This document shows, one piece after another, positions 34,985-64,000 of a DNA stretch of 64,000 nt. The notes under the pieces were generated by a model, which saw nothing but the letters and a program-made list of their open reading frames with translations, was not told where the DNA came from and made no database searches. Within the stretch, counting starts at the first letter, position 1. The number at the start of each line of letters is the position of its first letter. Origin of the DNA: Pteria penguin (taxonomy: Eukaryota; Mollusca; Bivalvia; Pterioida; Pteriidae); contig CM068581.1 of the NCBI GenBank assembly GCA_035048485.1, forward strand, positions 63,093,393 through 63,157,392, read 5' to 3'. The translations under genes were made by a program, and so were the position numbers.

Positions 34985-35650
34985 CACACACGTTTTCCGG
35001 ACTTTTTTTGTAAACGCTTGTAGACATTCATCCAATTTTTGGTGTGTGAGTCTACCACCATGAGTTACAGATCAAGTTCGAGTTTTGTTATGGTCTACTG
35101 ATTTTTGATGGAATTACGGCCCTTGGAATTAGAAAATTTCTTTAAAATGGAAGTTTTCCGGACTTTTTTTCAAAACGCTTGTAGATATTAATCCAATATT
35201 TGGTGTGTGAGTCTACCACCATGAGTTACAGAGTAAGTTCGAATTCCATTTCGGTCCACTGATTTTTGACGGAATTACGGCCCTTGGAATTAGAAAATTT
35301 CTTTAAAATGGCAGTTTTCCAGACTTTTTTTCTAAACGCTTGTAGATATTCATCCAATTTTTGGTGTGTGAGCATACCACCATGAGTTACAGATCAATTT
35401 CGAGTTTCATTACGGTCTACTGATTTTTGACGGAATTACGGCCCTTGGAACTAGAAAATTTCTTTAAAATGGCAGTTTTCCAGACTTTTTTTCTAAACGC
35501 TTGTAGATATTCATCCAATTTTTGGTGTGTGAGCATACCACCATGAGTAACAGATCAAGTTCGAGTTCTGTGTCGGTTCACTGATTTTTGACGGAATTAC
35601 GGCCCTTGGAATTAGAAAATTTCTTTAAAATGGCAGTTTTCCAGACTTTT
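34985..35650. repeat. Tandem core repeats, about 160 bp unit
   Basis: Four units, each with cttgtagatattcatccaat, accaccatgagttacagatc and ggaattacggcccttggaat. Confidence 0.95.
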
Positions 35651-35652
35651 TT

Positions 35653-44752: not shown

Positions 44753-45484
44753 TTATTTCTGCCTTAAGAATTAGAAATGAGAATTAGAAATCTCATGTGC
44801 TATTGTTTGTATAAGGAAAGCAGCTTCTTTCTTAAGCAATGAAGATATGATAAATATAAGAATTAAACAGGTTTCTGAAAACTAAAAACAACGAACTTAA
44901 CAATTTCATTAAGTAGGAATTGGATAAGAATTCTGAAATGGCCAATTCTGTGCTCTGCTGTTGAGTTTGAGATATCAGATGTAATATGTGATCGACAGTC
45001 CATGAAATCAATCCAAAAATCTGATAAATTGCATATAGGGGTCGTGATCTGCCAGATCTTATATTTTGATACTTCAAATAAATTGTAAGAAATAAGGAAT
45101 TCTTTTTTTTTTCAGTTTTCAATGTTATAATAGTACTGAACAGATTTAACAACATGTAGACGTGTGAAGAACATGTCTGAAGTGTTTTGTGTCTCAAGAT
45201 TTTCTTTTTTACTATGATTTTACCTTAGTATTACCAGCAAATGATATTGAACAAGTCTTCTTAGGGTTATGGTAAAGATGGGATTTTTAAAAAGTTTTAA
45301 AGAACAAATGTAAATTAAAGTTATAGGTACATGTATCTACCCTTGATATGTCTTGCACTTCTGTGATGTAAACTAGATTAACATATTCATCTTTTAGGTG
45401 AAAAAATTCAGGTGCAAATTCTGACAGAAGTTTCGTATTGAAGAGTATTTAGTTGGCTGGGACGAATGTCCGGAGAGCTATTAT

Positions 45485-46020: not shown

Positions 46021-46795
46021 TATACGCCGGCATTTAAAAATGGGGGCGTATTATGCTATACCGCTGTCGTCCGTCCGTCCGTCCATCCATCCTTGTCCGG
46101 GTTTCTCCTTAACTAAAGGGGGAACAAAAGTTTTGATGGTGTCATATGAAAGGGTGTAGCTTGTAGTGCATGTGGGTTTCAAAGTTGGGGTCAGGCTCCT
46201 GAGGTGGGGGAAACTGGGCGGGGTCGGAAAAGCTTGTCCTGGCTTCTTCTCTTTAACTAAAGGGGGAAACAAAAGTTTTGATGGTGTCATATGAAAGGAT
46301 GTGGCTTGTAGTTGTGCATGTGGGTTTCAAAGTTGGGGTCGGGCCCCTGGGTTGGGGGAAAATGGGTGGGGTTGGAAAGGTTTTCAGGACTTCTACTCCT
46401 TATCGAAAGGGGAAATAAAACTTTTGATGGTGTCATATGAAAGGATGTGGCTTGTACTTGTGCATGTGGGTTTCAAAGTTGGGGTCAGGCCCCTGGGGCG
46501 GGGGAAAATGGGTGGGGTCGAAAAAGCTTGTCCGGGCTTCTCCTTAACTAAAGGGGGAACAAAAGTTTTGATGGTGTTATATGAAAGGGTGTGACTTGTT
46601 GTTGTGCATGTGGTTTTCAAAGTTGGGGTCAGGTCCCTGGGGTTGGAGAAAATGGGCGGGGTCGAAAAAGCTTGTCTGGGGTTTTTTTTAACTAAAGGGG
46701 GAACAAAACTTTTGATGGTGTCCTATTCTTTCATCCATTACCACTACATTAAAACGTGATGCGGGCGTATCACGCACCCGTTAGCGGTGCCCTAT
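46021..46795 (+). mobile_element. Pearl/Helentron-like element P6
   Basis: 5' end tatacgccggcatttaaaaatgggggcgta, (GTCC)n tract, then five core repeats of about 145 bp (aaagggggaacaaaagttttgatgg). 3' end gatgcgggcgtatc with hairpin GCACC-cgttagc-GGTGC (46774-46790). Open frames on both strands here are repeat artefacts. Confidence 0.8.
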
Positions 46796-47811
46796 TTTTA
46801 CAATAAGTAAATGGAAATCTTCAAAAGGTTGTTATACGTAAACACTTCTAAACATTATATTTTGCTGACATTTTATTTTTCCAGATCTCCTACATGTATT
46901 ATATCTGCTTATACCATCAGGCCAACTTAAGAGATCTCATTGTATAGGACCATTAGCTGCTGTTTTCCAACATACTTCATGAGAAAACAAGCATTCATTA
47001 TGACAAAATCAACAAGAGTATAAATAGATAGGATAGGTAGATAATAATTGGAAAACTCCTTTTCTAATTTGATATACTCGTCCTTTCACTTAAATGGAAT
47101 ACTTCAATTATTGACCTTACATTTTTTAAAGCATCCCTTAGAAATATCTACTTAGACTTTGATACTTAAAGACATTGTTAAGGATATTATCATCCATGCT
47201 ACACTTTCATCAGTATAATTTTCTATTTGACATTCATATCGCATTCTAATATGACTTGAGATTTTCTCCCCACATATTCCATAGAGCCTAATGATTATTC
47301 TCCAACACATTCCTACGCCCACGCCTATTATACAACCACGGTTCTTAATGCTCCGCCCAATTCATTTTCTGAAAACTGAATTAGTTAATTTTTACCTAAC
47401 AACGGTACATATTAGAATAGAAATAACAACTACCTAGCCGCGGCTATTGTTATTTCTTTAAAATTATAGTGTGATTCACTTGCAGTGATTTTGTAGGTGT
47501 TACGTGTTACCTGACCTCACATACATTTTTTTTTATCTTAGCACGCAGAGTGCCCCCCCCCCCCCCTCACCCCTACCCCAACACACACACATAGAGAAAA
47601 CTAATTTCCTCTTTTGTAAATTTCCTACAGCAAACTTTGGTTAAATTAGAAAATCAGAAACAATTAGTACGCGAAGATCCGTACCAACGAGGAAGATTTA
47701 TATATGTTGTCAACTTGTTTCTCAATCATCGTAAAATAAATAAAGTTTAAATTTAGATTATTCAAAACACTCCACTCAAAAATATCTATATCCAGGGTTT
47801 TTTTTCGGGAC

Positions 47812-47940
47812 AGGTTAATCCAGTGGTATCGTACTGGGTATCAATCAGAGGACCCGAGTTCGATTCCAGCTGTCGACTAGTAATTAATCATCTTTCGTCT
47901 CCCCTATCTGTCCCTATCAAGTAGCCTTTACAACATGGAA
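47812..47940 (+). repeat. SINE family A head
   Basis: ggttaatccagtggtatcgtactgg and cgagttcgattccagctg give A and B boxes. The tail domain is missing or too diverged. Confidence 0.65.
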
Positions 47941-48263
47941 TACATATGCATTAAACTCTACCACACGACCTTTATTCAATTAAAGGAGTCGCTGATGCGT
48001 CTAGTGCACATAATGTATTGTCTACATTCATTTTCACCTGACGTATAAAAGAAAGAAAAAACAAAAATAAAAAAAACCCCCCAAAACCAGAAAAAAACCA
48101 AAAAAACAAAGTCATAAATTTTCATAAATTCGAGTCATAGCCAACATAATTAAATAATAATTAAGTAAGCTGTATTTCACAACGCTATTCGACCCCTTAC
48201 GCACATGTGCACTCTATCACTAAATCATAAAAAAGAAACTTTCAACCGCGTCAGTTCTTTCAC

Positions 48264-48287
48264 GGGACATTCCCTTTGGAATTTTCC
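48264..48287 (+). promoter_or_regulatory. Two kappaB-like sites upstream of the peptide gene
   Basis: GGGACATTCC (48264-48273) fits the Rel/NF-kappaB consensus GGGRNNYYCC at every position. GGAATTTTCC (48278-48287) is a close variant. They lie 5 bases apart and end 12 bases before a TATA box, in the position expected for inducible immune promoters. A chance occurrence cannot be excluded without expression data. Confidence 0.5.
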
Positions 48288-48298
48288 TTTCGATTACC

Positions 48299-48307
48299 TT
48301 ATAAATA
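48299..48307 (+). promoter_or_regulatory. TATA box of the peptide gene
   Basis: TTATAAATA, about 30 bases before the inferred transcript start near 48330 and 51 bases before a consensus splice donor. Confidence 0.55.
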
Positions 48308-48329
48308 CTGCGGTCAAACTGTTCATATT

Positions 48330-48357
48330 TATATGTATTTGCTGCAAGCGAAGAAAG
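48330..48357 (+). other. Secreted-peptide gene, 5' UTR exon 1
   Basis: The start is inferred from TATA spacing. The end is fixed by the strong donor GAAAG|gtaagtct. An ATG at 48333 would be in frame with exon 2 and would add 22 residues, but that N-terminus is not signal-like and would leave almost no leader. The Met in exon 2 is therefore preferred. Confidence 0.5.
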
Positions 48358-48584
48358 GTAAGTCTGGTAATCGAATAGCATAATTATAATGGATTAAAAA
48401 AGCGTCGTTTGTCACTTGGAGGGCTAAATATGTATATTTGGTGTAGTCCGAAAAGTCTGCTTTGGCCAATTTTTTTTTTGGTCATTCGAGTTTTTGTTGT
48501 ATTGCAATATATGTAACCTCAGTAGTGTGCGTGTGATGATCCATGGTTCTACTTACAGACAGCTTTATTTTTAATGCTTCCTTA

Positions 48585-48930
48585 CCATTGGTGTCGTGTA
48601 GTCCCAATATGTTTCCGTACGCTTAGCATTGGTGTCCTGTAGTCCCAATGTGTTGTCCGTATTCTTAGCACTGGTGTCGTATAGTCCCATTGTATTCTCC
48701 GTAAATTAAGCATTGTTGTCGTGTAGTCCCAATGTGTTGTCCATATATTTATCAATGGTGTCGTGTAGTCCCGATATGTTGTTCGTATACTTATCATTGA
48801 TGTCGTGTATGTCGAAATGTGTTGTCTATATACTTAGCATTGGTCGTGTAGTCCCAATGTATTTTCCGTAAATTAAGCATTGTTGTCGAGTAGTCCCAAT
48901 GTGTTGTCCGTATATTTATCATTGGTGTTA
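48585..48930. repeat. Minisatellite, about 42 bp unit, in intron 1
   Basis: Eight or more units of cattggtgtcgtgtagtccc followed by aatgtgttgtccgtatacttag, lying inside intron 1 of the peptide gene. Variation in copy number could be polymorphic. Confidence 0.9.
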
Positions 48931-49139
48931 TGTCGTAACAAATTGTTTCTGTTATTTAATTAAATATTATTCAAGATAACTATGAATAAGTCACTGTCCG
49001 TCAGTTTATTTCCAAACCTATTTGCTTGATCAGTTTTTTTTTATCCAAATGAAATAAAATACTAAAATGAATAAACAAATTAACATTTCATTTTCGTTGT
49101 AGACGTTATTTTCCTGACCACTTACACTTGGTGTGTATG

Positions 49140-49330
49140 ACAAACGGTGGTTGGTTGATTGGCTTTTTATGTTGCTTTCAACAATTTTTCAGTTACACAT
49201 GTATATCACGACATGGAAGCGGGAGGTAGCCAACCTCTTAAACATAGTGGCGCAACCTGGGAATAGAACCCAATCGTTTTCACTGCAAGCCAAACGATTA
49301 ACCCCTACACCAACTCTGCTCCTGTATACC
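49140..49330 (-). repeat. SINE family D in intron 1
   Basis: Minus-strand copy: head (complement of gtggcgcaacctgggaatagaac), ggttggctacctcccgcttccatgtcg, then gttgaaagcaacataaaaagcc. Confidence 0.75.
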
Positions 49331-49398
49331 AAAATGAAGTAAAATGATAATGACATGTATTAAAGTTCATGTACTTTTTTACGATGTCTTCTTTTCAG

Positions 49399-49490
49399 TG
49401 GTTCGACAATATTCTGTTTCCGGGATCACATTTTACGATATGACGTCAATCACGGTTACACGTGTCATCTTCTTATCTGCCGCTGTCTTT
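49399..49490 (+). CDS. Secreted six-cysteine peptide, exon 2 (signal peptide)
   Basis: Acceptor cttcttttcag and donor CTTT|gtaagtat are both near consensus. Coding starts at ATG 49440 and gives 17 codons (MTSITVTRVIFLSAAVF), ending in phase 0. With the first residues of exon 3 this forms a classic signal peptide: a short polar start, Arg, then a 14-15 residue hydrophobic core. The ATG is the first in the exon. The intron that follows is 6,076 bases, of which 5,244 belong to an inserted element and one TTAA copy. Confidence 0.75.
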
Positions 49491-50737
49491 GTAAGTATGA
49501 CTCATAGCATGATAAGATACGAATATTGTAGGTAATCAATGAAGATGAATCAGAGAGGCATATTGTTGTTGCGAATTTCTGGCGAGCGAAGCGAGCCACA
49601 TTTTAATAATAATTCATCCTACAACTTCACTTCATAAAGTGCATACGTACTTGTTTCCCTTAACTTTCTGGAAAAGGGTGGGGGAGTTATTGTTAGTAAT
49701 ACTGAATTATTTCTACAAACTTATGTCTGTACTTGATACATATAGTAGCGTGAAGCCAGGAATTAACATGGAAGCGAATCTGAGAATTTTAATGTATATC
49801 AGAGCAGCGAGCAAAATCTTTTTAATATGTACATTTTGTGCAGATGCCATACATTATTGCCAAATTAAATATTTAGTTTCTAACAAATAGAGATCGAAAT
49901 ATTTATAATTTTCAGGATATTGGAGGACAGAATATTCTTTTTTTTTTAACGTGCCAGTCCTACCCTCCCCCAATGGTCATCCCCTCATAAGTATGGGAAA
50001 AATTTATTTTTATTTGTGGTTGTAGTGGTGATGCTAGGTTGGGGGTTTAATGGATTATATGTACTTCGTTTGTTAATATAAGGTTGGGCATCAGTACGCA
50101 CTGTAGAATCTTATTTCTGTTTACTTCCGTATAAATTTTACTTTATAGTTCATCTTAAAAACTTGCTTAACAACTTAACAGAGAGTCTACGATAGAATCA
50201 GGCAGGGAGCAATTCATGAGTTGTCATAAAATTTCATAATACTCAATCTGAAATATACTTATGCCAAGTGAATTTCTACTAAAATATTTTTTTCTTGTTT
50301 ACTCTTACCTATTGACTCATATAAGGTAGATAACTCTTGTACTTAAACTACACACTATTTAGACAATAATTTTACATAAAAAGATTCAAATTCAACTTCT
50401 CATAAATTTGTTATTAATAAAAGAAATTGTAATATCAATACTTATAATGGTACATCTATTCTAAATCCTTAAAATACATTCTATAAAAAGGGAGATAATT
50501 TGTATAAATAAGGAAAGATAACTCTTGTTTAAGTACACTGTTTGACATTACTGCAAAACGCCAGATAAAGGTACATAATTAAAGAAAATTTTAATGGTAT
50601 TTGGACACTCCATTTGTTCTCTTCATATAAAAATAGTGCAGACAACAATAAAGTTATTTATTTACTATAAAGATTTTTTGGGGTTTGAGACAGTTTTGAC
50701 ACCACAGTAATTAAAAAAGATGGTAATTTCAATTTTT

Positions 50738-51689
50738 ATGCTCCCTGAAAATACCATGAAGTACGTATATCTCCTACTCCTTTCATCAGAATTTGATAAT
50801 ACTTCACGAAAATATTATTTAGGTTAACAGCTTTTTGACAAAGGTCACTCAAGGTCATTTCTGAAAGGTCAAGGTCACTCATTAACTATGACTTAAACTA
50901 CCATGAAGTACTTATATCTCCTATACCTTTCATCAGAATTTGATCTTACTTCACCAAAATGTTTTTAGGTTAAGTGCTTTTGGACAAAGGGCAGTGAAGG
51001 GCATTTCTGAAAGGTCAAGGTCACTTATTAACTATGACTTAAAGTAACTTGAAGTACCTATATCTCCTATACCTTTCATCAGAATTTGATCATACTTCAC
51101 CAAAATGTTCTTTAGGTAAAGTGCTTTTGGACAAAGGGCAGTGAAGGGCATTTCTGAAAGGTCAAGGTCACTTATTAACTATGACTTAAAGCAACTTGAA
51201 GTACTTATATCTCCTATACCTTTCATCAAAATTTGATCATACTTCACCAAAATGTTCTTTAGCTTAAGGAATTTTGTACAAAGGTCACTCAAGGTCATTT
51301 CTGAAAGGTCAAGGTCACTTATTAACAATGACTTAAAATACCATGAAGTACTTATATGTCTTACACCTTTCATCATAATTTTGGTCATACTTCACTAAAA
51401 ATGTTATTTTCTTTAAGAGCTTTTGAACAAAGGTCAATTCAAGGTCAAAGTCACTTCCGAAAGGTAGTGTTTATTATAAAAAGTTTTATTTCATAACTAA
51501 TCAAGGTCAAGCTTACTCATTTAGCTTAAGATACTGTGATCACTTGTTGTTCCACAATTGACTCAATTAGATATCTGTATGATACATTGCGTGAGATTTG
51601 AAATCGTCATCAATTAATACAATGGTTTTCCATATACTGAGTCATTCATTGTTGCCGTGTTTCTTGGAGCCTCCATCAGTTTTTCTGAT
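50738..51689 (+). mobile_element. Pearl/Helentron-like element P9
   Basis: Starts atgctccctgaaaa. Five core repeats of about 155 bp follow (taccatgaagtacttatatc, ctttcatcagaatttgat, ggtcaaggtcactta). Ends ggagcctccatcagtttttctgat, a hairpin end close to that of P4. Many TCAAGGTCA motifs. Confidence 0.75.
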
Positions 51690-51693
51690 TTTT

Positions 51694-52169
51694 GTCCCCC
51701 ACTTTTAGCAAAAGTGAGGGGACATTAAATCTCATTCGTGTGTCTGTCTGTCCGTCCGTCCGTCTGTCTGTTGTACTGTCTGTCACAAAAACTTTAACCT
51801 TGGTCTAACTTTTTAACCGTAAGTTGTAGGGCCTTCATATTTGGCATGTGTGTCCTTAACTGCACTACCTTTCCTTTGGTACCAGAAGTTTTTTTTTTAT
51901 TGTCTGACCTTGATCGTGACCTTTGACCTACTTCAATGTAACATTTTTACTGTAAAACGTAGGGCCTTCATATTTGGCATGTGTGTCTGTAGACATGCAC
52001 AACCATGGCGATATATCACAGATCACTGCACCCTTGCTGATAGAACCCTGAAAGCAGGAGACCACAATTCTCTGAATTTTCTTGTTTGTATATAAATTGA
52101 GTCATCAATTTCCTGCATTATAACTGCCGTTCGGGGAGCATGCATCTATCAGTTTTACTGATACTCTTG
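51694..52169 (+). mobile_element. Pearl/Helentron-like element P4
   Basis: 5' hairpin gtcccccacttttagcaaaa then gtgaggggac, a (GTCT/GTCC)n tract, and two core repeats with agggccttcatatttggcatgtgtgtc. 3' end ggggagcatgcatct with hairpin ATCAG-ttttA-CTGAT (52148-52162), then ACTCTTG and tt. Confidence 0.8.
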
Positions 52170-52436
52170 TTATTCTGAAAATCTGCTTTTCTAATTTTTT
52201 AAATGTAAATGAAAAACATTAATCAAGAAGGTGAAAAACCGTTTCTGTAATTTCTGCATACATGTATTTCTAAGCGTACAGCTATTGGTGTGCCAGCAAA
52301 AAGTCCACTTCTGAATAAAATCAAGAGTCCCTCGGGTATTTCAATATTTTGATTAAAAGGAGATGCCTTGCATTGAACTAGATGCACATTTATATTTTTA
52401 GTACATTCAAATATGGTAAACCCCTAAAGACGAAGG

Positions 52437-52612
52437 GGCAGGCTTGGTGTAGTGGTTAAGCGCTTGGCTTGCGGCGCCGACGATCCGGGTTCGATTCCCG
52501 GGTTGCGCCACTATGTTTAAGAGGTTGGTCGACTCCTGCTTCCATGTCGCGGTATAAACGAAGAACTCTTGAAAGCGACGTAAAACATCAATCAAGCAAC
52601 CAACCAACCTAA
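52437..52612 (+). repeat. tRNA-derived SINE, family D, complete
   Basis: The head ggcttggtgtagtggttaagcgc (A box) and gatccgggttcgattcccgg (B box) are followed by cgactcctgcttccatgtcg and gaaagcgacgtaaaacatca. The tRNA-like part is well preserved, but no CCA or acceptor closure occurs. Confidence 0.85.
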
Positions 52613-52622
52613 AAACGACATG

Positions 52623-54517
52623 ACCGGATTGCAAAGCAAATTCGAATCAGGAGCAACACCTAGTGTGGCATAATACACCTGTCACTCAGTTTGATAAGAA
52701 AAACATTATAAAGTGTGGATCCCTCCGCCCCTAACAATTAGTCAGGACTCAAGATAACACATGCTTTGGCCCAGGACAACAACTCTGTGTTATATTACTG
52801 AAATTCATAAAAGGAGGAAGTTATTGCGTGAAAGAAGACTTTAACCCCTCCCTTTTTTTCTTCTATGTTAAAAATGTAAGAATACAGAAGAAACTTGAAC
52901 TGTCCTAATGGGACACATACCACATGCGGCTACAAAATTTGAAGTAGGACAAAGACCAAGGTAAGGGTCAATAGGTCAACGATTTTGGTATCGACAGACA
53001 GGGCTTGCTAGATTAATTGATTGATTGATTGATTATTGTTTTATATCACTTCTCGATTATTTCACGTGTATGGTGATGGCATCTGCTTGATGCATTGCAT
53101 ACAAATTTAGACCTTTGCAACCGACCCACCCGAAGCAGTGAGGGATCTTTTACGTGCCACATTTACCGTGACACTGGACCTCGGTTTTTACTGTCTCATA
53201 TGAAAGACAGAACACCGGTGTCCCCAAGAAAGTAGTCGAACCCGGGACCGTCAAACGTCAAGGTCACGGTGTAAAAAATTTTGGAACCGACAGAAAGATC
53301 TTCCTTCAAGGAATACATATGCGTATTATGAAGACCCCACTTCTTTTGGTTCAAAAGTTATGGCCAAGGTTAAAGTTTTTCTCAAAAAATAGCCCAAACG
53401 TCAAGGTTTTGCCACATGGAATACACATATGTAGTATGAAGGCCCAATCTCTTTTGTATCAAAAGTTAAAGGTTAAAGTTTTCCGGACAGACTGACGGAC
53501 AAGGCGATTCCAAAATACTCCCCCCCCCCCAACTTTGTTTGCGGGTGGTATAATTATATTTATATTATAGTTCATATATAATTCTATCATAAATTTAAAT
53601 TTGAAAGAGCCTGAGTGAGAAATGAATTTCTAATAATTTTTTAATAAATGTTCAAAATAAAAATAAAAAAATCAAAGACCCATAACTCTGTACCAATGAA
53701 GAGGATATTTTCAAAATCGAAAGGCATATTCCTTTATTTTCTGTATAAATTTGATGAAAAACAATTCATGATTACTGAAATTAGTATATCCCATAGAAAC
53801 TGCCATTATGCTATCAATGAAAAGGGCCACTCAGGTAAAACCGAGTCAATCATACTGAAATGCCATCTGGTACTTACATTTATTGATATAAAGTTATATT
53901 CCAAGTTTCAATCCAATATCTTGAAATCCTGCAGAAAAAAATCCAGAAAACTGTAAAATCCTCGAAATTTTCTAGTTCAAGGGCCATAACTTTGGCAAAG
54001 CCAAGTCAATCGTACCAAAATGCAAACTAGTACCTATGCTCATTGGTATAAGTTCTATACCAAGTTTCAATCAAACCTTGAAAGACTGCAAAAAAAGTCC
54101 AGAAAACATGACTTCGGACGGATAACGTCATGCCATTATACATCCCGTCTGTCACGGGCATATAACAAGGTCAAGGTCACACGCTCAAAATTTGAGATAT
54201 CATTTGAAAGCACTCGTCATAAAGAACCTGTGTGTGAAGTATCAAAACCCTATTCCTGTTAATTTAAAAGATATAGCCAAAGTTAAAGTTCCTTAAAAGT
54301 TGGTTGAAGTCCAAGGTCAAGGTCACTACAGTAGGTCAAAAGTCATAGCATAATTTGAATGCTCTGATCATAAGAAACCTATGTTGGAAGTATTTTGTTT
54401 ATACTCCTCTTAGTTGCTGAAATTTTGCTTCAAACAGAAACTTTAACCAAAATGTTGACGGACACACGTGCGAACTGACATCGCCAATCTGTACACTGGA
54501 ATTGCTTTGCAATCCGG
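52623..54517 (-). mobile_element. Pearl-type P3 element, reverse, with nested insertions
   Basis: On the minus strand it begins ccggattgcaaagcaattcc (54517 side), with a truncated (GTCC) tract and core repeats containing ccttgaccttgg and tttcttatgatcag. It ends gaatttgctttgcaatccgg (52623 side). Between lie other core-repeat blocks (53650-54170, 53270-53540) and a SINE B, so its inner history is complex. Confidence 0.6.
53008..53250 (-). repeat. SINE family B
   Basis: The minus strand has a B box (complement of agtcgaacccgggacc), then the family B domain, ending ataaaacaataatcaatc with a (TTGA)n tail at the 53008 side. Confidence 0.8.
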
Positions 54518-55566
54518 CAAAAAATTATTTTTACTACATTTAACATTATTCTAGTTACATGCTCTAGAAAAACTACACAAGTAACTATCTGCCAAGGGGC
54601 TGCCATTTTCTTATATTTTGAACTCGTCAGCCTCCTTAAATCGCAAAAGAGTGAACACAAGGGAAGCAATCCTTGAGCGTTTTTTAATATTTTTTCCATG
54701 ATTTCATCGTAATATAGGATATTTATGAATATCAAAATAGCTTGGTTGTTCTAAACAACATACTTAAAATAACTAATTGTAAATTTAGGCAAAGTTTTGT
54801 TATCAAAATAGAGCTAAACACGAGATTAATAAGCCATAAGAAAAGTTAGCTTTGGTAATTTATGATTATTTTGTGCATGGACGCATGCAATTATTTAGAA
54901 AAACCCAATGGTAATATTTCATCTATCATATATTCAAATAGTAACTTTTTCAAAAATCAAAAAGAGATTTAAATGAAAGCGTCCAAACTTTATAAATTTC
55001 TCGGTTGAAAATACCTTATTTTTGTATTTTTTCACATTCCGTAGTTTAACCAGGATTTCATCCCGTTGCCATGACAACAACAAACTTGCAATATTGATCT
55101 GAGGTATTCAGATATATTTTTAGATGTATGAAGATAAATATAATAATAAAATTACGTTGATTCAGGTCACAAAATATGAAAATGACCATAGTTTTAATTG
55201 CAAGAAAGTAAGAAAAAACAGTACGTTTTTCAGACTAAGAATACCCCCATTTCTAGATGAGAGTATTAATGAATAACGAAAGTCATTTTTTGAACATGAT
55301 ATTACTTATAATTCTTCTGTAACTATCTTCTCTTCATTTTTGATTAAAAATAGACATTTAGAAAAATATCAGAAATTGAGATATTTGACTAATGCCTGGT
55401 TCTATCGTAGACTCTCTGTTAACAATACATGGTATTAAAAGATTTCATTGAAAAATTAAAAAGTTTTTTAAACCGAAAAATAATTGTTTAATGCAATCAT
55501 ACAAATAAAATTTTTTCAAAATTTGCATACTCCTCAACTTAAATTTTATTATATTTCTAACAACAG

Positions 55567-55737
55567 CTGGTGATGAGTAATTTCCCCATCCGAGTAGAAG
55601 GGAACTGGCTACGTGGTATAGGGGCAGCTCTGAGACCGACATGCATCGGATGTCAAGGCATATGTGAAAAACGTGGAAAAGGTTGTTCCTGCGTCGTCGA
55701 TCAAGAATGTGAGAAGAAAAGATCTGGAAAGAAATGA
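55567..55737 (+). CDS. Secreted six-cysteine cationic peptide, exon 3
   Basis: Acceptor atatttctaacaacag; 56 codons and TGA at 55735-55737. The precursor is 73 residues. A likely signal cleavage is after V-E-G (residue 29), leaving a 44-residue peptide that starts NWLRGIGAAL, has cysteines spaced C-x2-C-x3-C-x6-C-x-C-x5-C, ends in a Lys-rich tail, and carries 10 Arg/Lys against 4 Asp/Glu. Even cysteine number, secretion, positive charge, a single mature-peptide exon and upstream kappaB-like sites suggest a host-defence peptide. I do not recognise the cysteine pattern as a named bivalve family (defensin, big defensin, mytilin, myticin), and another extracellular role is possible. Confidence 0.75.
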   Translation: MVMSNFPIRVEGNWLRGIGAALRPTCIGCQGICEKRGKGCSCVVDQECEKKRSGKK

Positions 55738-55772
55738 TCGTCGTAATATATAGCAAAAAGTTTGGAGAAGTT

Positions 55773-55778
55773 AATAAA
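55773..55778 (+). terminator. Poly(A) signal of the peptide gene
   Basis: AATAAA 36 bases after the stop codon, followed by a GT/T-rich stretch (gcgtgtc..actgtttt). Confidence 0.7.
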
Positions 55779-55929
55779 AGCGTGTCAAAAACTGTTTTAT
55801 CGTTAGTTGTTGAATAAATAAGGGGGATTTGATGTATACATACTATGTATGAGTATAAATTCGTTATCAGCAGAGCTGTTGGTGAATGTGCTTATTGTTG
55901 CGGCATTGTTACCTCGGAAATCTGTTAAT

Positions 55930-56095
55930 ATTTAGTTCATTTAGTTGAAAGTTATACGGGCTTTCCCCATCTCTTGGCGTCCGTCGCCCAGATACTTTAT
56001 CCATTTTAACCCAGACACCCGGATTTTGATGAAACTTGGCATAATTGATAAATGGAAAGTCTTCTGTAAACGATCGTCATTTGTTTCTGATCGGA
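55930..56095 (+). mobile_element. Pearl-type element, 5' fragment
   Basis: gggctttccccatctcttggcgtccgtcg followed by one core unit (ttgatgaaacttggcataattgataaatgg). No 3' end found. Confidence 0.45.
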
Positions 56096-56099
56096 TGAA

Positions 56100-58440
56100 T
56101 AACATGGCCACCAGAAATATTAATATTTATATCTATTTAATTTATTTCAAATGAAAATAAATGCAATAAGGATAATCAACATAATAAATAACTATATGTT
56201 GAGATGTTGATGAATTTCAATTTGATTGTCGTTAAAATTAGACTTAAAAACTAACTATATTTGTGCTTAAATAATAATAATTATGTTAGAAGTCGGAGGA
56301 CTTATTGCATAACTGTGTAAGTATTTATTTTGCATGTTGACGTCATGGTTGCTCTCTGAACTCTGTGTTTCAAGATTATGAAGTAATGATATAATAATTC
56401 ATAGATAAGCAGTTTCATTTCTTAAATAATGAAGTAATCGTACACTTACTCACTGGTAATGTCTCTCCCGTAGCAATCCATTTATTGAATAAAATATACA
56501 ACAAACTTTAAAGTTCAAATTGAAATTTTTGAAGATCCCTATCAGAAGCAAAAAAAATATTGAGTTGTAAAAATCCTACGATGTTATGAACCAAATCTCT
56601 GACTAAATCCACACATTAACGATATGGAAAAGATTCTTAAGAGTCCAGTCATATGGTATTTACATTTCCCAATTGGTTCGATTTGAAGCCTGCACTAACG
56701 TTTTTGATTTTCATACCCCCCCCTCCCCCAAATAATAATAATAATAAAAAAAACCCCAAATTACTTCGAAAATTTTGACACAGGATTACAGATACCATAA
56801 ACTCAGAAAAATTTTCTGAAAATTCTATTGATCTTATTAGGAGCATTATTAAAATTCGGAAATACTACTTTTCAACGGAATCTCTCATCCACATTTCTAC
56901 TGTGATCTTGTATTTAAACTTAGAAAGGTAAACGTCAAGATTTTAAAATAGGCAAACACCTTCGTAATCGCCAATATGACCCTAAGATCATCGCTAAAAC
57001 AATAAGTCTTGTACTGGACCCCTCAACAGCCCCTACAGACTTTTTCTGGAGTGTTGCACTCTAACAGGGCGGTGAAGACTTTTTGACGGAGTAAAGGATC
57101 ATGTGCCTTATCCCCCTGACAATAAGTCGGGACTCCGATGGAACAAGCACTTTAGCCCGCTTTCAGAAGAGCAGAGCACGCAAACCCGTAAACTGGTTAA
57201 CTACAGCAATTGAGTAATTAGCGACATTTCAATTAACCGTCTTAAGTCTGTGCAATTGATTTTTGTGATGTCTATCTATGTCATATTGTTTGCTTTTGTG
57301 TCTGTGATGACATTTGTCACACGGCTGGGTCAGATGTCTATGCTTTTTTTTAAAGAAACACTATCCCTCAATGGATTTATGTTTTGAAACTTACTATGAG
57401 CTTTAACGTCCACATATGTATATATTAGACACTACTTCAAAGATTTACAAAAAAAACTCTTTTGAAAATACTGTACTATAAATGAGATACCAGCGAACGT
57501 TGGGAATATCGTGCTTTTCTCTGCAATTTGGCACCTAAAGAATGATTATTCATGAGCTATCAATCATGTTACCGCATTAAAATGACAAGGATGTCTTTAT
57601 TCATATCTTTTTTTTTACTTTTCATATCCGAATCGCTAAACAAATTCTTTCTTCCCCGTTTCCTTTTCATTTTCTCCATTTTGTTGATACATGTACTTTT
57701 GTTTATGTCTCGCGTCGCAATATATTATTGCACATGCGCGAAGGTGGCGCTCTCAGCAAATATGGGCATTTTATGTGCACCTCACAAGAATTCATTTTAT
57801 TTTATAAATAATGCATGATCTTTGCAGAACTAGTTTTAAATTCTTGTATCATCGAAAAGTTTACATATCAAGTCACTGATTTTTTTTTCTCAAATGCTGC
57901 AAATTCAGGCTGTGAGGGACAGTGCCTCTTTAAGGGGACACAGGATCTCGACTAATCGGCGCCCTGGATGTTATGAAATGAAATATAGTAATGACGATAT
58001 ATGAGTATCTATTCGAATTGTAGCTTACTTTTTGCTTTTCCTTGGATGAGCACCGTTATGTAGCCATATAGGATATCTCATCTCGTTTCCTTATATACGA
58101 CCAAAAGGTCTAAAAGACACAAATTCTCCACCAGCCATGTGTTTACAATAAAATAGAAACACACAATATCACAAATTAAGTGTTTCTGTTTTCAATTGAA
58201 CCAGTGCGTTTCTCTTAGGAAATCTATAAAGAATGGTTCATGTCTGTATATGCTTGGATAGATATGTCAAAAATTGGGGATATTCAAACCGAAACAGCAG
58301 TGTGGCATATACATGTAATGCAAATTAAACAGCAGTGTGCTATATACATGTAATGTATATTAAATCAAAATTTAACAAACATCCGAATAACTCTATCAAA
58401 TTCTATAAAAGACTCATTATCTTTATTTTCTCTCAAACTT
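56100..58440. other. No recognisable gene
   Basis: AT-rich DNA with a C-run and (AAT)n at 56715-56745 and a short (atacatgtaatg) duplication near 58310-58350. A frame at 57552-57818 is hydrophobic but lacks gene signals. Confidence 0.4.
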
Positions 58441-58441
58441 A

Positions 58442-58715
58442 TTTATTGATTGATTATTGTTTTACGTCACTCCACGGTTATTTCACGTATATAGTGACGG
58501 CATCTGCCTGATGCATTGCATAGAAATTTCCATCTTTGCAACGGACCCAACCGTAGCAGTGAGGGAACTTTACGTGCCACGCTAGGCGTGGCACGGGACA
58601 TCGATTTTTACTGTATCATCCGAAAGACAGAACACCGGTGTGCCCAGGGCGGGAATCGAACCCGAGACCTCTAGGTCACGAGCTGAGCATCTCATCCACT
58701 AGGCCATACCGGATT
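58442..58715 (-). repeat. tRNA-derived SINE, family B, complete
   Basis: Minus strand: head ccggtatggcctagtggatgag, B box (complement of cgggaatcgaacccgag), then the family domain, ending gtgacgtaaaacaataatca. It is the best-preserved family B copy here. Confidence 0.85.
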
Positions 58716-58929
58716 CCTCTCAAAATGAAAACTAATTGTAGTAGGAAACAGGGGACTGATAAATATTGATAAGCGAAGTCCATGCTCAAATAAAATTTTG
58801 TGTCAGATAAGCATTTCTCCCTTGAACAAGACGGACGAAAATAGTACAGAGACGATTCTCTTTGCTGTACAATGTAAAATACGAAAGTAACTGGTGTCAC
58901 ATGACTATGGCACTAACAAGTATTTACCA

Positions 58930-59150
58930 CAGTGGACATTTCACGGACCCCTGAAATTCAGAGGTGAGACCCGATGCCCAGGAGGAGTGAGCGTCTCCTG
59001 TTTGGCTAGCCACACCCGCCCTGAATGCCCTTAAATACAGACGAAACAAATATAATTCAGCACTGTATATATACACGAATGTGAACAAACACTGTAGAAA
59101 GTGTCATAGCTACACAACATCAGAAAAAGTTTATAATAACACTTAAGTCA
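58930..59150 (-). repeat. Dispersed repeat family G
   Basis: The complement of ggagtgagcgtctcctgtttgg..ctagccacacccgcc and of tgtcatagctacacaacatc matches 8290-8420. Confidence 0.5.
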
Positions 59151-59266
59151 AACCCTTAGCGGGGAACATTTTGACGAGCGAAAGGAATAAGTGTGATGTT
59201 AATGTAAAATACGAAAGTAACTATCCTGGGAAATGATGGATAAAATGTGGTGTAAAATTTAAGACA

Positions 59267-59272
59267 TTTATT
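59267..59272 (-). terminator. Possible poly(A) signal overlapping the stop codon
   Basis: The minus strand reads CAATAAATG, so AATAAA includes the TAA stop of the repeat-helix gene. Use is unproven; it would give an unusually short 3' UTR. Confidence 0.3.
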
Positions 59273-59333
59273 GCTTAAAGCAACAGCACAGACATCTAAT
59301 TCCTTTCCGGACTCTACGTAGCATTCTCCTCAT
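59268..59333 (-). CDS. Repeat-helix (AKAP-like) gene, last exon: polybasic-Cys tail
   Basis: Acceptor attattttacag; 21 codons then TAA. The encoded end RRVRKGIRCLCCCFKQ puts a run of Arg/Lys directly before four cysteines within five residues. That layout is typical of palmitoylated, electrostatically held peripheral membrane proteins, suggesting the whole protein is anchored to a membrane by its C-terminus. Phase 0, as for every other exon of the gene. Confidence 0.65.
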   Translation of the reverse strand: MRRMLRRVRKGIRCLCCCFKQ

Positions 59334-59578
59334 CTGTAAAATAATATACATGCAGTATAGTTATCTATTCTGGATAATACATTAATATTAATATCGAGAA
59401 GTAAACTCAGGTTATAGATCAACATATTACTTTGATCTATCTTTTCATACCAATGTTTTCTAAAATTTTCCAAAATAGTGAAATGAGTAAAATTTGCTTG
59501 TTAGTTATTGACTTTCGGCAAACCCTGTACGAAATAATTAATATTTTAAGTTTCTTATAAACTCAAACGTTAAAATAC

Positions 59579-59629
59579 CTTAGAGTCTTTTTTCCCCTTT
59601 GTGAATGTATCATGTGAGCAATTCAGTTC
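59579..59629 (-). CDS. Repeat-helix (AKAP-like) gene, exon of 51 nt
   Basis: Acceptor attatctttttag, donor AAG|gtatttta. Encodes ELNCSHDTFTKGKKDSK in phase 0/0, hydrophilic and Lys-rich, leading into the basic last exon. Confidence 0.65.
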
Positions 59630-60262
59630 CTAAAAAGATAATATTCGAATTAAGTCAGATTTCCATCTAGTCATAAACGTGAACCAGCTGAAAATCCCGA
59701 TACTACTGAATGATGAGTGATAATATTAAATTACCAATAACATGGTAAAATGAAGGCAGAGACAGGGGTTATTGAACAATGATTTGGCATCCAGGAAGTG
59801 TAAGAAAATCTTCTTGTCTCGCCACACTCGCCGTGAATGATTCTACATCATGTAATAAAAAGAAATCTCCAGCCAAAAACCGATGAAAGGGTCCTAGTGT
59901 TATTTTATCACTTACATCTTATTACAGACTCACAATATGACGTATAAACATAAATAATCTGCTGACGCGAAAATCTTCACAAAATACGATTATTTACATA
60001 CAACGTTGTGGTAGAATTTTGCATTGACAAAACATTGATTCACTGTAAATTTTGTATCCTTTAATTGTGAATAGAATTCAAGAATGATATCTAGATTTTA
60101 GGATAACAAATTACATGTATCTTGAAAAAAGAAGCAAAATCAAGTACTGTCAATTTCAAATTTCTTTCTTTTCAAAAATGCAAATTCTTGCAATTGCAAA
60201 ATGATGACGATGATGATCATAATGAGGAAGAGGAAGGACGGAAGGAAAAATAATTTACATAC

Positions 60263-60418
60263 CATATTGGTATCATTAACGTCCAGATTTGTTGAAGTAA
60301 ACTCCCTAGATGAGGCGGAATCATACAATGAGGTGGCATCAACAGTTGAAGCATTGTAAACTCCAATATTGAGGACTGTTGAAACGTCTCTTGTCATTTT
60401 CTCATCAAACTGCTGTCT
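60263..60418 (-). CDS. Repeat-helix (AKAP-like) gene, exon of 156 nt
   Basis: Acceptor ctgatcttttag, donor ATG|gtatgt. 52 codons, phase 0/0, Ser/Thr/Asp-rich with several possible phosphorylation sites. It begins RQQFDEKMTRDVS, continuing YRKE-R from the large exon. No domain recognised. Confidence 0.7.
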
Positions 60419-60597
60419 CTAAAAGATCAGTAACAGATAAATTTCATTCACTAAACAAACAATAGTGGATTTTTACAAAATTTCATTACATTAAAATTTT
60501 AATATCAGAAACTATCTTCAATCCGAACAATTAACATTTTCAATAAACGGCAATAATCAATTGCATCTAAAATATTTAATGAAGAAACAAACCCTAC

Positions 60598-62019
60598 CCT
60601 TTCTTTTCTATAGTCATCCATATCTAAGAGTTCAGGTGAAAATGGTGTTGGTATGGCGGTTGTATTATGGACGAGGAGCAGAAGAAGAGACGCGTCCTCA
60701 CAATCCTGCGGGGTGTATTTGATCTCAGTCCCTGGTTGTGGTTGCTTAACTTCTTGCTCAGTAGATCTCAATAAATCTTCGCTACCATCAATTTTCGCCA
60801 TTTCCTCAAGCTCTTGTTCCTCATATTTCTTTGAACCCAAACTATTCCTTATCATTTCATCAAGAATTCGTCTGGCTATGTTTGAGTGATGTTTTTCAGT
60901 AAAATTTTTCTCCCATTGGCCATTCTTAACATTTTGCTCAGTGCACTTCTGTGGATAATGAATATTTTCAGTCTTTGCCTTCTCTTTGTTCTCTCGAACT
61001 TTGCTTTGAGATAAAAGGACTAGCGATTTTGGTTGTTGCACCACTTGGTCTTCACATGATTTTTGCACCACTTGGTCTTCACATGGTTTTTGCGCCGTTT
61101 GGTATTCACATTCTAGTAAAGCTAAACTAGTATTTATTATCTCGTCTACTAATCTTTTGGCTGTGTCTTGAAGGTCTCTTTCGGCTGGTTTGTTCTTGCA
61201 CGTATCATGCTCAGATTCGCGCTCCCTGCTTTCCTCTGTTCTAAGGATATCTCTAATTGTCTTCTCGTTTACGTTTCGTTCTGGTGTTTTTCCAGGGACC
61301 ATTGATCCTTCTTCTTCGTTGCATCTTAGTGAAGCCAAGCTTTTGTCAATTATATCATTTACATATCCTCGCACCATATCTCTTAATCCTAGCTCAGTTG
61401 TGCTTGACTTGCCTTTGTCGAGGTCAGCTTCTAATTTTGTATTTTCTCGTGGAGTAGGAACGTTATCGCTGTCCTCCTTATCTTTGCTGTTTTGTTCTGG
61501 TGTTATGGCGTCTGACAGATTGGCAGTTGACATTGGATGCTCGATTTTTATTTCGTTAAACTGCAGCAATACCAAGCAGTTATCTATTATTTCATTCACG
61601 TAATTTCGCACCATGTCTCTTAATTCTGGATTCTCTTCGCATTTGACATGCTCTACTTCTCCTTGTGCATTTTCAAGATTATCTTGGAGACTGGCGATCT
61701 TTGTTTTTTCTTCTTGTTGTTCTGCAGAGGATACGTGTTCTCTGGCTTCTGCAGCAGGTTCTGCCAACTTTGGATTTCTGTTTCCTTTTACGTCACATTG
61801 CAGTAGAACTATGCTGCGATTTATGATTTCTTCAACATACTTCCTTGCCTTCTGCCCCAATTCTATTTCGCTTGTACGTGCATCATCTTGTTCTCTGTTC
61901 ATGCTTGTCACTGCTACGGATTCTTTTCTACTGTTCACTTCTTCATGTCTGGCCTTTTCGGGGTAGTTGGTCTCTTTTTCACCATTGTCATTTTTTTCTT
62001 GGTGTTTAATTAGTTGTTG
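60598..62019 (-). CDS. Repeat-helix (AKAP-like) gene, main exon with five amphipathic helices
   Basis: A 1,422 nt phase-0 exon (acceptor tttaattgcag, donor AGG|gtaggg) encoding 474 charged, mostly disordered residues. Five related segments recur 71-95 residues apart: ARKYVEEIINRSIVLLQ (61798-61848), VRNYVNEIIDNCLVLLQ (61561-61611), VRGYVNDIIDKSLASLR (61324-61374), AKRLVDEIINTSLALLE (61111-61161) and ARRILDEMIRNSLGSKK (60826-60876). Small or aliphatic residues fall at positions 1, 4/5, 8/9 and 12/13, the pattern by which A-kinase anchoring helices grip the PKA RII dimer; copies 1-3 have Tyr at position 4. A short tandem (CEDQVVQ twice) and a LLLLL run lie near the end. I recognise no named orthologue. 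AKAP function is inference; an alternative is repeated docking for another helical dimer. Confidence 0.7.
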
Positions 62020-62218
62020 CTGCAATTAAAGACATACTTAACATGCTTGAATAAATATATGTAGCTGAAAGTTGATTGGTATCAAAGTATTGACAAAAGT
62101 CTACTTATATATTTATAGTTGTGTTTCGAATTTATTTATTTACTATTTATTCACTAATTCATTTTTTAGATATAATTATCACACTTTATTATAATCTAAT
62201 GAATGCCTATATACATAC

Positions 62219-62239
62219 CTCTTTTTTCCATCTCTCAAA
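62219..62239 (-). CDS. Repeat-helix gene, micro-exon of 21 nt
   Basis: Acceptor ttttatttctag, donor GAG|gtatgt; encodes FERWKKE, phase 0/0. Confidence 0.6.
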
Positions 62240-62436
62240 CTAGAAATAAAAGAAACAAAATTTTATGAATAACAAAGAAATATTGCTAATAAATACTATA
62301 TTACATGTATATTATATTGAAATATTATATAAAACTTTTATAATATGTCGATACTAAATGTAGAAAATAAATTCAAATTAAAAATAATGAAGTCATCAAA
62401 TTTTATTTTAAATATTATTTTAAAAAGGATTGATTT

Positions 62437-62690
62437 TTTTTTCTCACAGGAAATGTTTTTCACACTTATATGGTGATGGCACCTGCCTGTTGCATGTAAA
62501 GAAATTTAGACCTATTCAACGGACCCACCAAAACACTGAGGAATTTTTAACCTGCTACGTTTACCGTGACACGGAACTTCAGTTTTCACCGTTTCATCTA
62601 ATATAGTAGATAGGACATCGTCGAGTCAGCGGTGGTACTCTAACGCGAGACCTTTCAGTTTTGAGTCAAGTACCTTACTGTTTTTGCTAC
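62437..62690 (-). repeat. SINE family B, degraded, in intron
   Basis: The complement of tatggtgatggcacctgcctg..acctattcaacggaccc..accgtgacacgg matches family B. It lies in the intron between the 21 nt and 18 nt micro-exons. Confidence 0.65.
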
Positions 62691-62964
62691 ACTTGCTCAA
62701 AGCTAATGGTATTCAGTGCTGACTATTTTACAAATAACATTCCCCTTACAATATCAACAACAACCCCCCCCCCCTCAAAAAAAAAAAAAAAACTCCCCAG
62801 AAACATAGAATAATAAAGAAATAAAAAAACTCAAACAAATAAAGAAACATAGAAATAAAGAATAAATAAATACCTAACGGGGAAAATAATTACTAAACCC
62901 AGAGAAAACAAAACAACTCCCAGAAAACAACAACCAAAACAAAAATAGTTAATAAGAATAGGAT

Positions 62965-63168
62965 TTGATATTTCTTGATATTATTTGATATGGCATTATA
63001 TGGCATGATATGGTATGATATGAAATGATATGGCACGATATGGTATGATATGATATGATATAGTATGATATGGTATGATATGACATGATATGATATGATA
63101 TGATATGATATGATATGATATGATATGATATGATAAGATATGATATGATATGATATGATATGATATAT
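62965..63168. repeat. (GATAT)n pentanucleotide array
   Basis: About 40 units, pure near 63080-63168 and diverging (gcatgatatg, gtatgatatg) toward 62965. Likely length-polymorphic. It ends 10 bases from the donor of the 18 nt micro-exon. Confidence 0.95.
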
Positions 63169-63178
63169 ATGTACATAC

Positions 63179-63196
63179 CTTTTTCTTTCGCCTTTC
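63179..63196 (-). CDS. Repeat-helix gene, micro-exon of 18 nt
   Basis: Acceptor tatatttatag, donor AAG|gtatgt; encodes ERRKKK, phase 0/0. Its donor abuts the (GATAT)n array. Confidence 0.55.
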
Positions 63197-63398
63197 CTAT
63201 AAATATAACAGAAGACAGTGTTAGAATAATTCGAACAATTAACGTTATATCATCATTGATTAAACATATTATATTTTCCCATTCCTTTAAATCATTTTTC
63301 ATTATTAATCTTCCATAAATATATTTATTTAAAGTTAGATGTAAGGAAATCGCTAAATAAGAAAAATTAAGAATGAAGGTGCTTATTGATAGCCATAC

Positions 63399-63419
63399 CT
63401 CTCGCTTTTTATGTTCATC
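63399..63419 (-). CDS. Repeat-helix gene, micro-exon of 21 nt
   Basis: Acceptor attaattttcag, donor GAG|gtatgg; encodes DEHKKRE, phase 0/0. Confidence 0.6.
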
Positions 63420-63682
63420 CTGAAAATTAATAACAAATACCTATTTTATTCCTGAAAAAGGTATTTGGATAATGGATACATGCGTTACAAATAAGAATGA
63501 ATATTTTATACATTTTAATTTCTGAGTTCTGGATCTGGGCATTATGCTCCTATCTGTATTCGAAATAACATTTGACATTGCAATGCATTAATGTACTATA
63601 GAAAATATTATTCATATCAAATGAAATATAAAGGAATGTTTGACAAAGAAACCAACGTTTTGAAACAAGCAATGGAACTTAC

Positions 63683-63757
63683 AGGTGGCAAGTCCGACAC
63701 CAGCAACCGGCCTTTAGTATGCCCATCTTCCCCTTTGTACTCATATCGATGTATTAC
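63683..63757 (-). CDS. Repeat-helix gene, first exon in window (75 nt)
   Basis: Acceptor tttatatttaaag (weak polypyrimidine tract), donor CCT|gtaagt (strong). 25 codons, phase 0/0: VIHRYEYKGEDGHTKGRLLV and five more residues. Unlike the later exons it looks like part of a folded domain (beta-strand-like, with a charged turn), which I cannot name. No Met start or upstream exon was found before the window end, so the gene's 5' part is missing. Confidence 0.6.
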
Positions 63758-64000
63758 CTTTAAATATAAAGTAAACAATAGAAAATTATATAGATAAATT
63801 GATTGCCGGGTCAACTTGAATTAACTAGACCCTTAGGAAATCATTCGGATCGAGTTTATCAAATAATTCTAAATGTATTCTTTGAATAAGAAGTGTATAT
63901 GATTTGTTATGATGCAAAATTGTTTAATGAAATAAAAGATAATATGTAGGTATAGCAAACAAACAAACAAAACCAAACAAACCCCAAAAGAAAACAATAA

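Follow-up and report, generated by a model that had tools for sequence, protein, structure and literature searches.

A 64,000-nucleotide stretch of the genome of the bivalve Pteria penguin (the window, C2:63093393-63157392, on contig CM068581.1) holds what is almost certainly a real three-exon gene, here copy A, for a predicted secreted six-cysteine peptide. The gene lies on the plus strand. Its promoter carries two kappaB-like sites, GGGACATTCC at 48264-48273 and GGAATTTTCC at 48278-48287, followed by a TATA box (TATAAATA) at 48300-48307. Exon 1 (48330-48357) is non-coding, its transcription start being placed from the position of the TATA box, and it is followed by the donor AAAG/GTAAGT at 48358 (the slash marks the border). 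Exon 2 (49399-49490) comprises the end of the 5' untranslated region, the ATG at 49440 and 17 signal-peptide codons (MTSITVTRVIFLSAAVF), and ends in phase 0 at the donor GTAAGT (49491). Intron 2 (49491-55566) is 6076 bp long, or 832 bp without an inserted element. The coding part of exon 3 (55567-55737) covers the signal-peptide end, the predicted mature peptide (55603-55734) and the stop codon (55735-55737), and encodes LVMSNFPIRVEG and then NWLRGIGAALRPTCIGCQGICEKRGKGCSCVVDQECEKKRSGKK. An AATAAA poly(A) signal is present at 55773-55778. The kappaB-like sites, TATA box, exons, signal-like start and poly(A) signal were thus recovered in order and in frame where the original prediction had placed them.

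The promoter is singular within the window. GGGRNNYYCC matches twice on the plus strand, once at site 1, and not on the minus strand. GGRRNNYYCC within 80 bp upstream of TATA[AT]A[AT] occurs at a single place on the plus strand and at none on the minus strand; that place is the promoter of copy A, which carries two such sites. Two GAAA/TTTC pair patterns for interferon regulatory factors and the interferon-stimulated response element had no match in 48151-48330, where single GAAAC and AA..GAAA matches occur. The G+C content of exon 3 is 47%, compared with 24% and 33% in the adjoining 200 bp, a level also reached by 289 of 6383 sliding windows.

Further copies were sought in the whole assembly (838,482,794 bases, 49 contigs) with exon 3 of copy A, as DNA and as protein, and with exon 2 as DNA; the resulting family count is a lower bound. 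The exon 3 protein matched three places (3 of 3 candidates), copies A, B and C, while exon 2 matched two (2 of 2), copies A and B. With exon 3 DNA, one further match was obtained at C2:63163565-63163730, 80% identical (2 of 2 candidates). Copy B is a complete second gene in tandem, 14.6-19.1 kb downstream of A, with kappaB-like sites at C2 63160763 and 63160777, a TATA box at 63160799, an exon-1 donor at 63160854, exon 2 at 63162687-63162778, and exon 3 from 63163565 with AATAAA shortly after the stop. Besides A and B, no exon-3 protein match better than E 0.6 was found in 181,607 bp around the window.

Copy C lies on the minus strand of another contig, C9, and was recovered by a protein match of 64% identity over residues 2-54. 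Its exon 3 starts at C9 36858955 in phase 0, with ATTAAA about 190 nt and AATAAA about 240 nt past the stop. The candidate signal exon, MASSSVKIAFFVCAIVVM, which ends in GTAAGT 501 bp upstream of exon 3, is the best-scoring of the listed candidates and was chosen without homology. About 1.88 kb upstream, GGGAATCCCC, GGAATTTTC, TATATATAA and the exon-1 donor GAG/GTAAGT follow one another in the order seen in copy A.

The three genes share one design, consisting of paired kappaB-like sites, a TATA box, an exon-1 donor, a signal exon and a six-cysteine terminal exon. Both kappaB-like sites are letter-for-letter identical in A and B, and the TATA box is conserved in B. The sites of copy C read GGGAATCCCC, at the place equivalent to site 1, and GGAATTTTCT, nine of the ten bases of site 2 being retained, with TATATATAA as the TATA box. 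The distance from the start of site 1 to the start of the TATA box is 36 bp in A and B and 37 bp in C, and the exon-1 donor AGGTAAGT is conserved in B and C. Intron 2, which measures 786 bp in copy B and 501 bp in copy C, is in phase 0 in all three copies. An ATG at 48333 in exon 1 of A starts a frame continuous with the main one, but the corresponding frame of B runs into a stop inside exon 1, and translation from this ATG was therefore rejected. The frame of exon 3, which the original prediction had proposed to examine in relatives, is open in both of these paralogs from the same genome. All six cysteines are present in the three copies, loop 3 having seven residues in C versus six in A, and 25 columns of the three-way alignment are invariant, including the six cysteines, GICEK and DQEC. 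The proposed gene for a secreted six-cysteine peptide behind a kappaB-type promoter is therefore borne out by a layout kept in two paralogs.

The mature peptide predicted for copy A (NWLRG...SGKK) has 44 residues, with 10 K/R versus 4 D/E, and the array C-x2-C-x3-C-x6-C-x-C-x5-C (loops 2-3-6-1-5), just as first described. Its secretion and its disulphides are predicted. The N-terminus is amphipathic (moment 0.73, shuffle p = 0.014). The first cysteine is preceded by 13 residues in A and B and by 16 in C, and no dibasic site lies upstream of it. The C-terminal tails, SGKK in A and a terminal G in C, resemble amidation signals. Net charge is +5.7 in A, about -0.3 in B and +6.4 in C; the peptide had been called cationic, which holds for A and C but not for B. 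Modelling predicts two strands followed by a helix, with a predicted local distance difference test score (pLDDT) of 72 and a predicted template modelling score (pTM) of 0.37. A model covering the entire exon-3 protein was discarded as too poor (pLDDT 59.9, pTM 0.33), and a gamma-core motif was dropped as evidence, being too frequent by chance.

Between A and B, conservation is concentrated where the gene model predicts functional parts. The kappaB-TATA block is identical at 54 of 56 positions and the coding sequence of exon 2 at 50 of 51, the sole change being synonymous, as against 563 of 720, with 15 insertions or deletions, in the element-free part of intron 2 (Fisher p = 4e-4 for the block and 1e-4 for the exon 2 coding sequence). 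Exon 3 is identical at 135 of 171 positions with no insertion or deletion (p = 0.03 at the intron rate), and the downstream sequence at 152 of 243. The ratio of non-synonymous to synonymous substitution rates is 0.51 overall (Fisher p = 0.05); by region it is 0.10 for the 29 leader codons, 0.57 for the 44 codons of the mature part and 0.29 for the 23 codons of the cysteine core. Differing bases amount to 4 of 87 in the leader versus 32 of 132 in the mature part (p = 7e-5). The alignment thus suggests that the leader is fixed and the mature part diversifying. Retention of all six cysteines is by itself only mildly unexpected when 38 of 56 residues are unchanged (p = 0.085).

Splice sites on the plus strand were ranked with hand-written general matrices. 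The splice borders, originally described as good, are so for the exon-1 donor (rank 3 of 3605 GTs) and the exon-2 acceptor (110 of 3096 AGs), while the exon-2 donor (372 of 3605) and the exon-3 acceptor (688 of 3096) are mediocre. A stricter acceptor filter, which was applied first and required 11 or more pyrimidines among the 15 bases upstream, rejected exon 3 wholly. The window contains 13 cysteine-rich open stretches versus a mean of 1.4-2.5 in simulated strands generated with an order-4 Markov model of the window; several of them are microsatellites. Among 661 simulated strands, a signal exon with an in-phase six-cysteine terminal exon appeared in 6 at thresholds equal to the observed values, which were chosen post hoc with the gene already seen, and in 147 at loose thresholds. 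The chain including the kappaB-TATA-donor promoter, for which an uncharged signal-exon end was also demanded, arose in none of 1133. The real plus strand gave 4 pairings at observed and 30 at loose thresholds when no promoter was required, so that the scan alone does not pick one signal exon; 2 pairings were obtained when the promoter was required. All of these observed-threshold pairings (4 and 2) use one and the same cysteine exon. No chain was obtained from the minus strand or after reversal of the window. These statistics are suggestive, being only moderately convincing for copy A and falling short of proof in an 838-Mb genome; the gene model is raised above chance by the two paralogous genes that share its layout.

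Several known families come close to the arrangement found here. Big defensins probably differ in cysteine spacing and in a terminal adjacent pair, which is absent from these peptides. A likeness to cyclotides and knottins lies in C-x-C followed by five residues to the last cysteine, with three disulphides possible; the difference is that loop 1 of 2 residues and loop 3 of 6-7 residues are outside the usual ranges. The spacing elements C-x3-C and C-x-C, bonded to each other in defensins of the CS-alpha-beta fold, are present, although these defensins have a helix followed by two strands whereas the model obtained here (pLDDT 72, pTM 0.37) has strands and then a helix. Most bivalve big defensins are described as three-exon genes whose coding sequence is divided over the last two exons, with a phase-1 second intron, a hydrophobic globular N-terminal domain and a dibasic prodomain site (PMC7203481). 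Copies A, B and C resemble them in having three exons with a non-coding exon 1, coding sequence on exons 2 and 3, six cysteines and predicted secretion. They differ in the phase-0 intron and lack a large hydrophobic domain at the N-terminus, a dibasic prodomain site and any Pfam match.

The CRP-I peptides of Mytilus, as presented in PMC10138031, are likewise secreted, with six cysteines, a short non-coding exon 1, a cysteine-rich last exon and a conserved leader joined to a diverse mature part, and amidation was assumed for the peptide tested. Amidation is called common in molluscan short peptides in the same source. Their array is C(X3-6)C(X1-7)CC(X3-4)C(x3-5)C, in which cysteines 3 and 4 are adjacent, unlike the loops 2-3-6-1-5 or 2-3-7-1-5 found here, which have no adjacent cysteines. 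Their dibasic propeptide site and three coding exons also contrast with the lack of a dibasic site before the mature part and the two coding exons of the present genes. With mytilins, myticins and mussel defensins (PMC7168163, PMC7356231), the copies share a signal exon, a cysteine-rich mature part, a non-coding first exon, which is stated for myticin and "other mussel AMPs" (PMC7356231), and the elements C-x3-C and C-x-C. Those families have eight cysteines, arranged as C-X3-C-X3-C-X4-C-X11-C-X-C-X-C-X2-C in mytilins (PMC7168163), versus six here, and there is neither a C-terminal extension nor a fourth exon.

Pfam gave no match of any kind up to E 10, and none was found in NCBIfam, in the PDB or among 5.8 billion predicted proteins. 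No relevant string was present in the text of 5.39 million papers, subscription papers and figure-borne sequences being outside this scope. No relatives were found outside the P. penguin genome in large collections that are mostly prokaryotic, viral or metagenomic, and for this reason the family negatives are weak for an animal gene. A pattern search of a contig collection matched 88 stretches, none of which was confirmed by tblastn. Literature matches to GICEK were set aside as single occurrences of a five-letter string in four papers on unrelated subjects. A viral match that keeps AALRPTCI was rejected as chance, as it does not preserve the cysteine pattern of the peptide and runs antisense to a 321-residue open reading frame. 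Within these limits, the results agree with the original statement that the spacing matches no familiar bivalve family, the arrays of mytilins and CRP-I being different and Pfam, NCBIfam and the PDB giving no match.

Intron 2 of copy A is large because an inverted-repeat-bounded element (50175-55422) sits within it. Its 30-nt ends are identical at 29 of 30 positions with TTAA at both outer ends, and it is probably mobile; no transposase domain was found among 89 reading frames of the window that were scanned. Within it lie a 147-bp tandem array (50748-51433), a segment resembling a tRNA and stretches that recur at other places in the window. A tRNA-like short interspersed repeat is present in two inverted copies with about 80% similarity, at 49191-49323 and 52434-52567, the latter overlapping a tRNA-Arg call by ARAGORN. 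The 5.2-kb element is missing from the 786-bp intron of copy B, so that the simplest order of events places its insertion in A after the duplication; as the alignment has a gap in B at this point, the exact empty site is not readable and the claim is limited to B being without the element.

The duplication that gave rise to B spans at least about 16 kb (47765-63985 versus C2:63160294-63171403), including a 506-codon open frame (60508-62025, minus strand) with its paralog at C2:63167422-63169623. Pieces of the block are 72-77% identical up to 57193 (peptide gene) and 82-88% from 57934 on (506-codon frame), a step which suggests uneven constraint or gene conversion. The 506-codon frame encodes a helix of the type RxYVxEIIxxSLxLLxC in five degenerate repeats, which may resemble AKAP-type anchoring helices. 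A search with the 506-residue protein gave no match among 8000 scored candidates at E 0.001. A Pfam scan of 89 of the 118 listed neighbouring reading frames gave five weak single-member matches and no recognisable gene. Tandem arrays lie at 34992-35652 (161-bp unit), 46092-46726 (144 bp) and 48581-48928 (42 bp), the last being in intron 1 and found in copy B also. A tRNA-Lys (ttt) is predicted at 45357-45432, about 3 kb upstream of copy A. On the strand of copy C, two apparent tandem arrays lie downstream of exon 3: TCLGC-coding matches spaced at multiples of 66 bp at a distance of about 3-5 kb, and GIHAAL-coding matches spaced at multiples of 44 bp at about 12 kb.

It is somewhat favoured that at least three paralogous genes encode a small secreted, disulphide-stabilised, Rel-controlled defence peptide of a new family. 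Taken separately, a defence role of the peptide is probable, and direct antimicrobial action is evenly balanced. Rel control is proposed because the kappaB-like sites are conserved among the copies. NF-kappaB sites have been predicted in promoters of oyster immune genes (PMC6685332). Upon infection or injury, Rel/NF-kappaB would activate transcription. Signal peptidase would cleave right before the conserved [N/S]W (VEG/NW in A and B, AEA/SW in C), three disulphides would form in the mature peptide, and the basic or glycine tails of A and C would be removed, followed by amidation. Outside the cell, the amphipathic start (NWLRGIGAALR in A) and the basic, cysteine-bounded GICEK...C loop would bind microbial membranes or surface polymers, while charge-depleted copy B would probably have shifted to another target or to a modulating role. 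Tentatively, these genes may represent an undescribed Rel-controlled host-defence family, combining an amphipathic N-terminal segment with a six-cysteine domain of unrecorded spacing, possibly strand-strand-helix. The family would be of sufficient age to occupy two chromosomal loci under a shared promoter grammar, and would now be dividing into cationic effectors (A and C) and a neutral, functionally shifted B.

A chance assembly of unrelated splice-like and cysteine-rich sequence would be in keeping with the mediocre exon-2 donor and exon-3 acceptor, with the 13 cysteine-rich open stretches of the window and with the 6 of 661 simulated strands in which the coding chain by itself appears. It is strongly contradicted and highly improbable, as the design is repeated at two other loci with open frames and conserved cysteines, and as conservation between A and B tracks the predicted functional parts. 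It is unlikely that copy A is a degenerate remnant, whose productive expression was lost through the element in intron 2. The element does make up most of that intron and is missing from the intron of copy B, but copy A retains intact GT/AG splice sites and an intact frame, and the promoter block is conserved; besides, introns of metazoans frequently hold such mobile-type elements.

The peptide may instead be a genuine secreted cysteine-rich product that is not antimicrobial, namely a signalling, protease-inhibitor or ion-channel peptide directed at the animal's own cells or at parasites, under stress or immune control. This is possible though doubtful. The neutrality of copy B, by which cationicity is not general to the family, weighs against microbial targeting and in favour of such a peptide, as does the precedent of the mussel sCRP-I H1. 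This secreted six-cysteine peptide, the one CRP-I member tested, was neither antimicrobial nor a protease inhibitor: its minimal inhibitory concentration exceeded 32 μM for four strains, and four proteases were not significantly inhibited. A role of CRP-I against eukaryotic parasites was suggested by the authors (PMC10138031). The amidation-like ends of A (SGKK) and C (G) point the same way. On the other side stand the paired kappaB-like sites in three promoters, the strongly cationic character of two of the three members, and a mature part that diverges faster than the leader, which a hormone acting on a fixed receptor would not usually show.

If the preferred interpretation as a Rel-controlled defence peptide is true, a family of defence peptides would have been discovered from raw DNA alone. 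The three paralogs, alike in promoter design and cysteine frame but with net charges of +5.7, -0.3 and +6.4, would constitute a natural experiment, and the need of charge for immune function is therefore directly testable.

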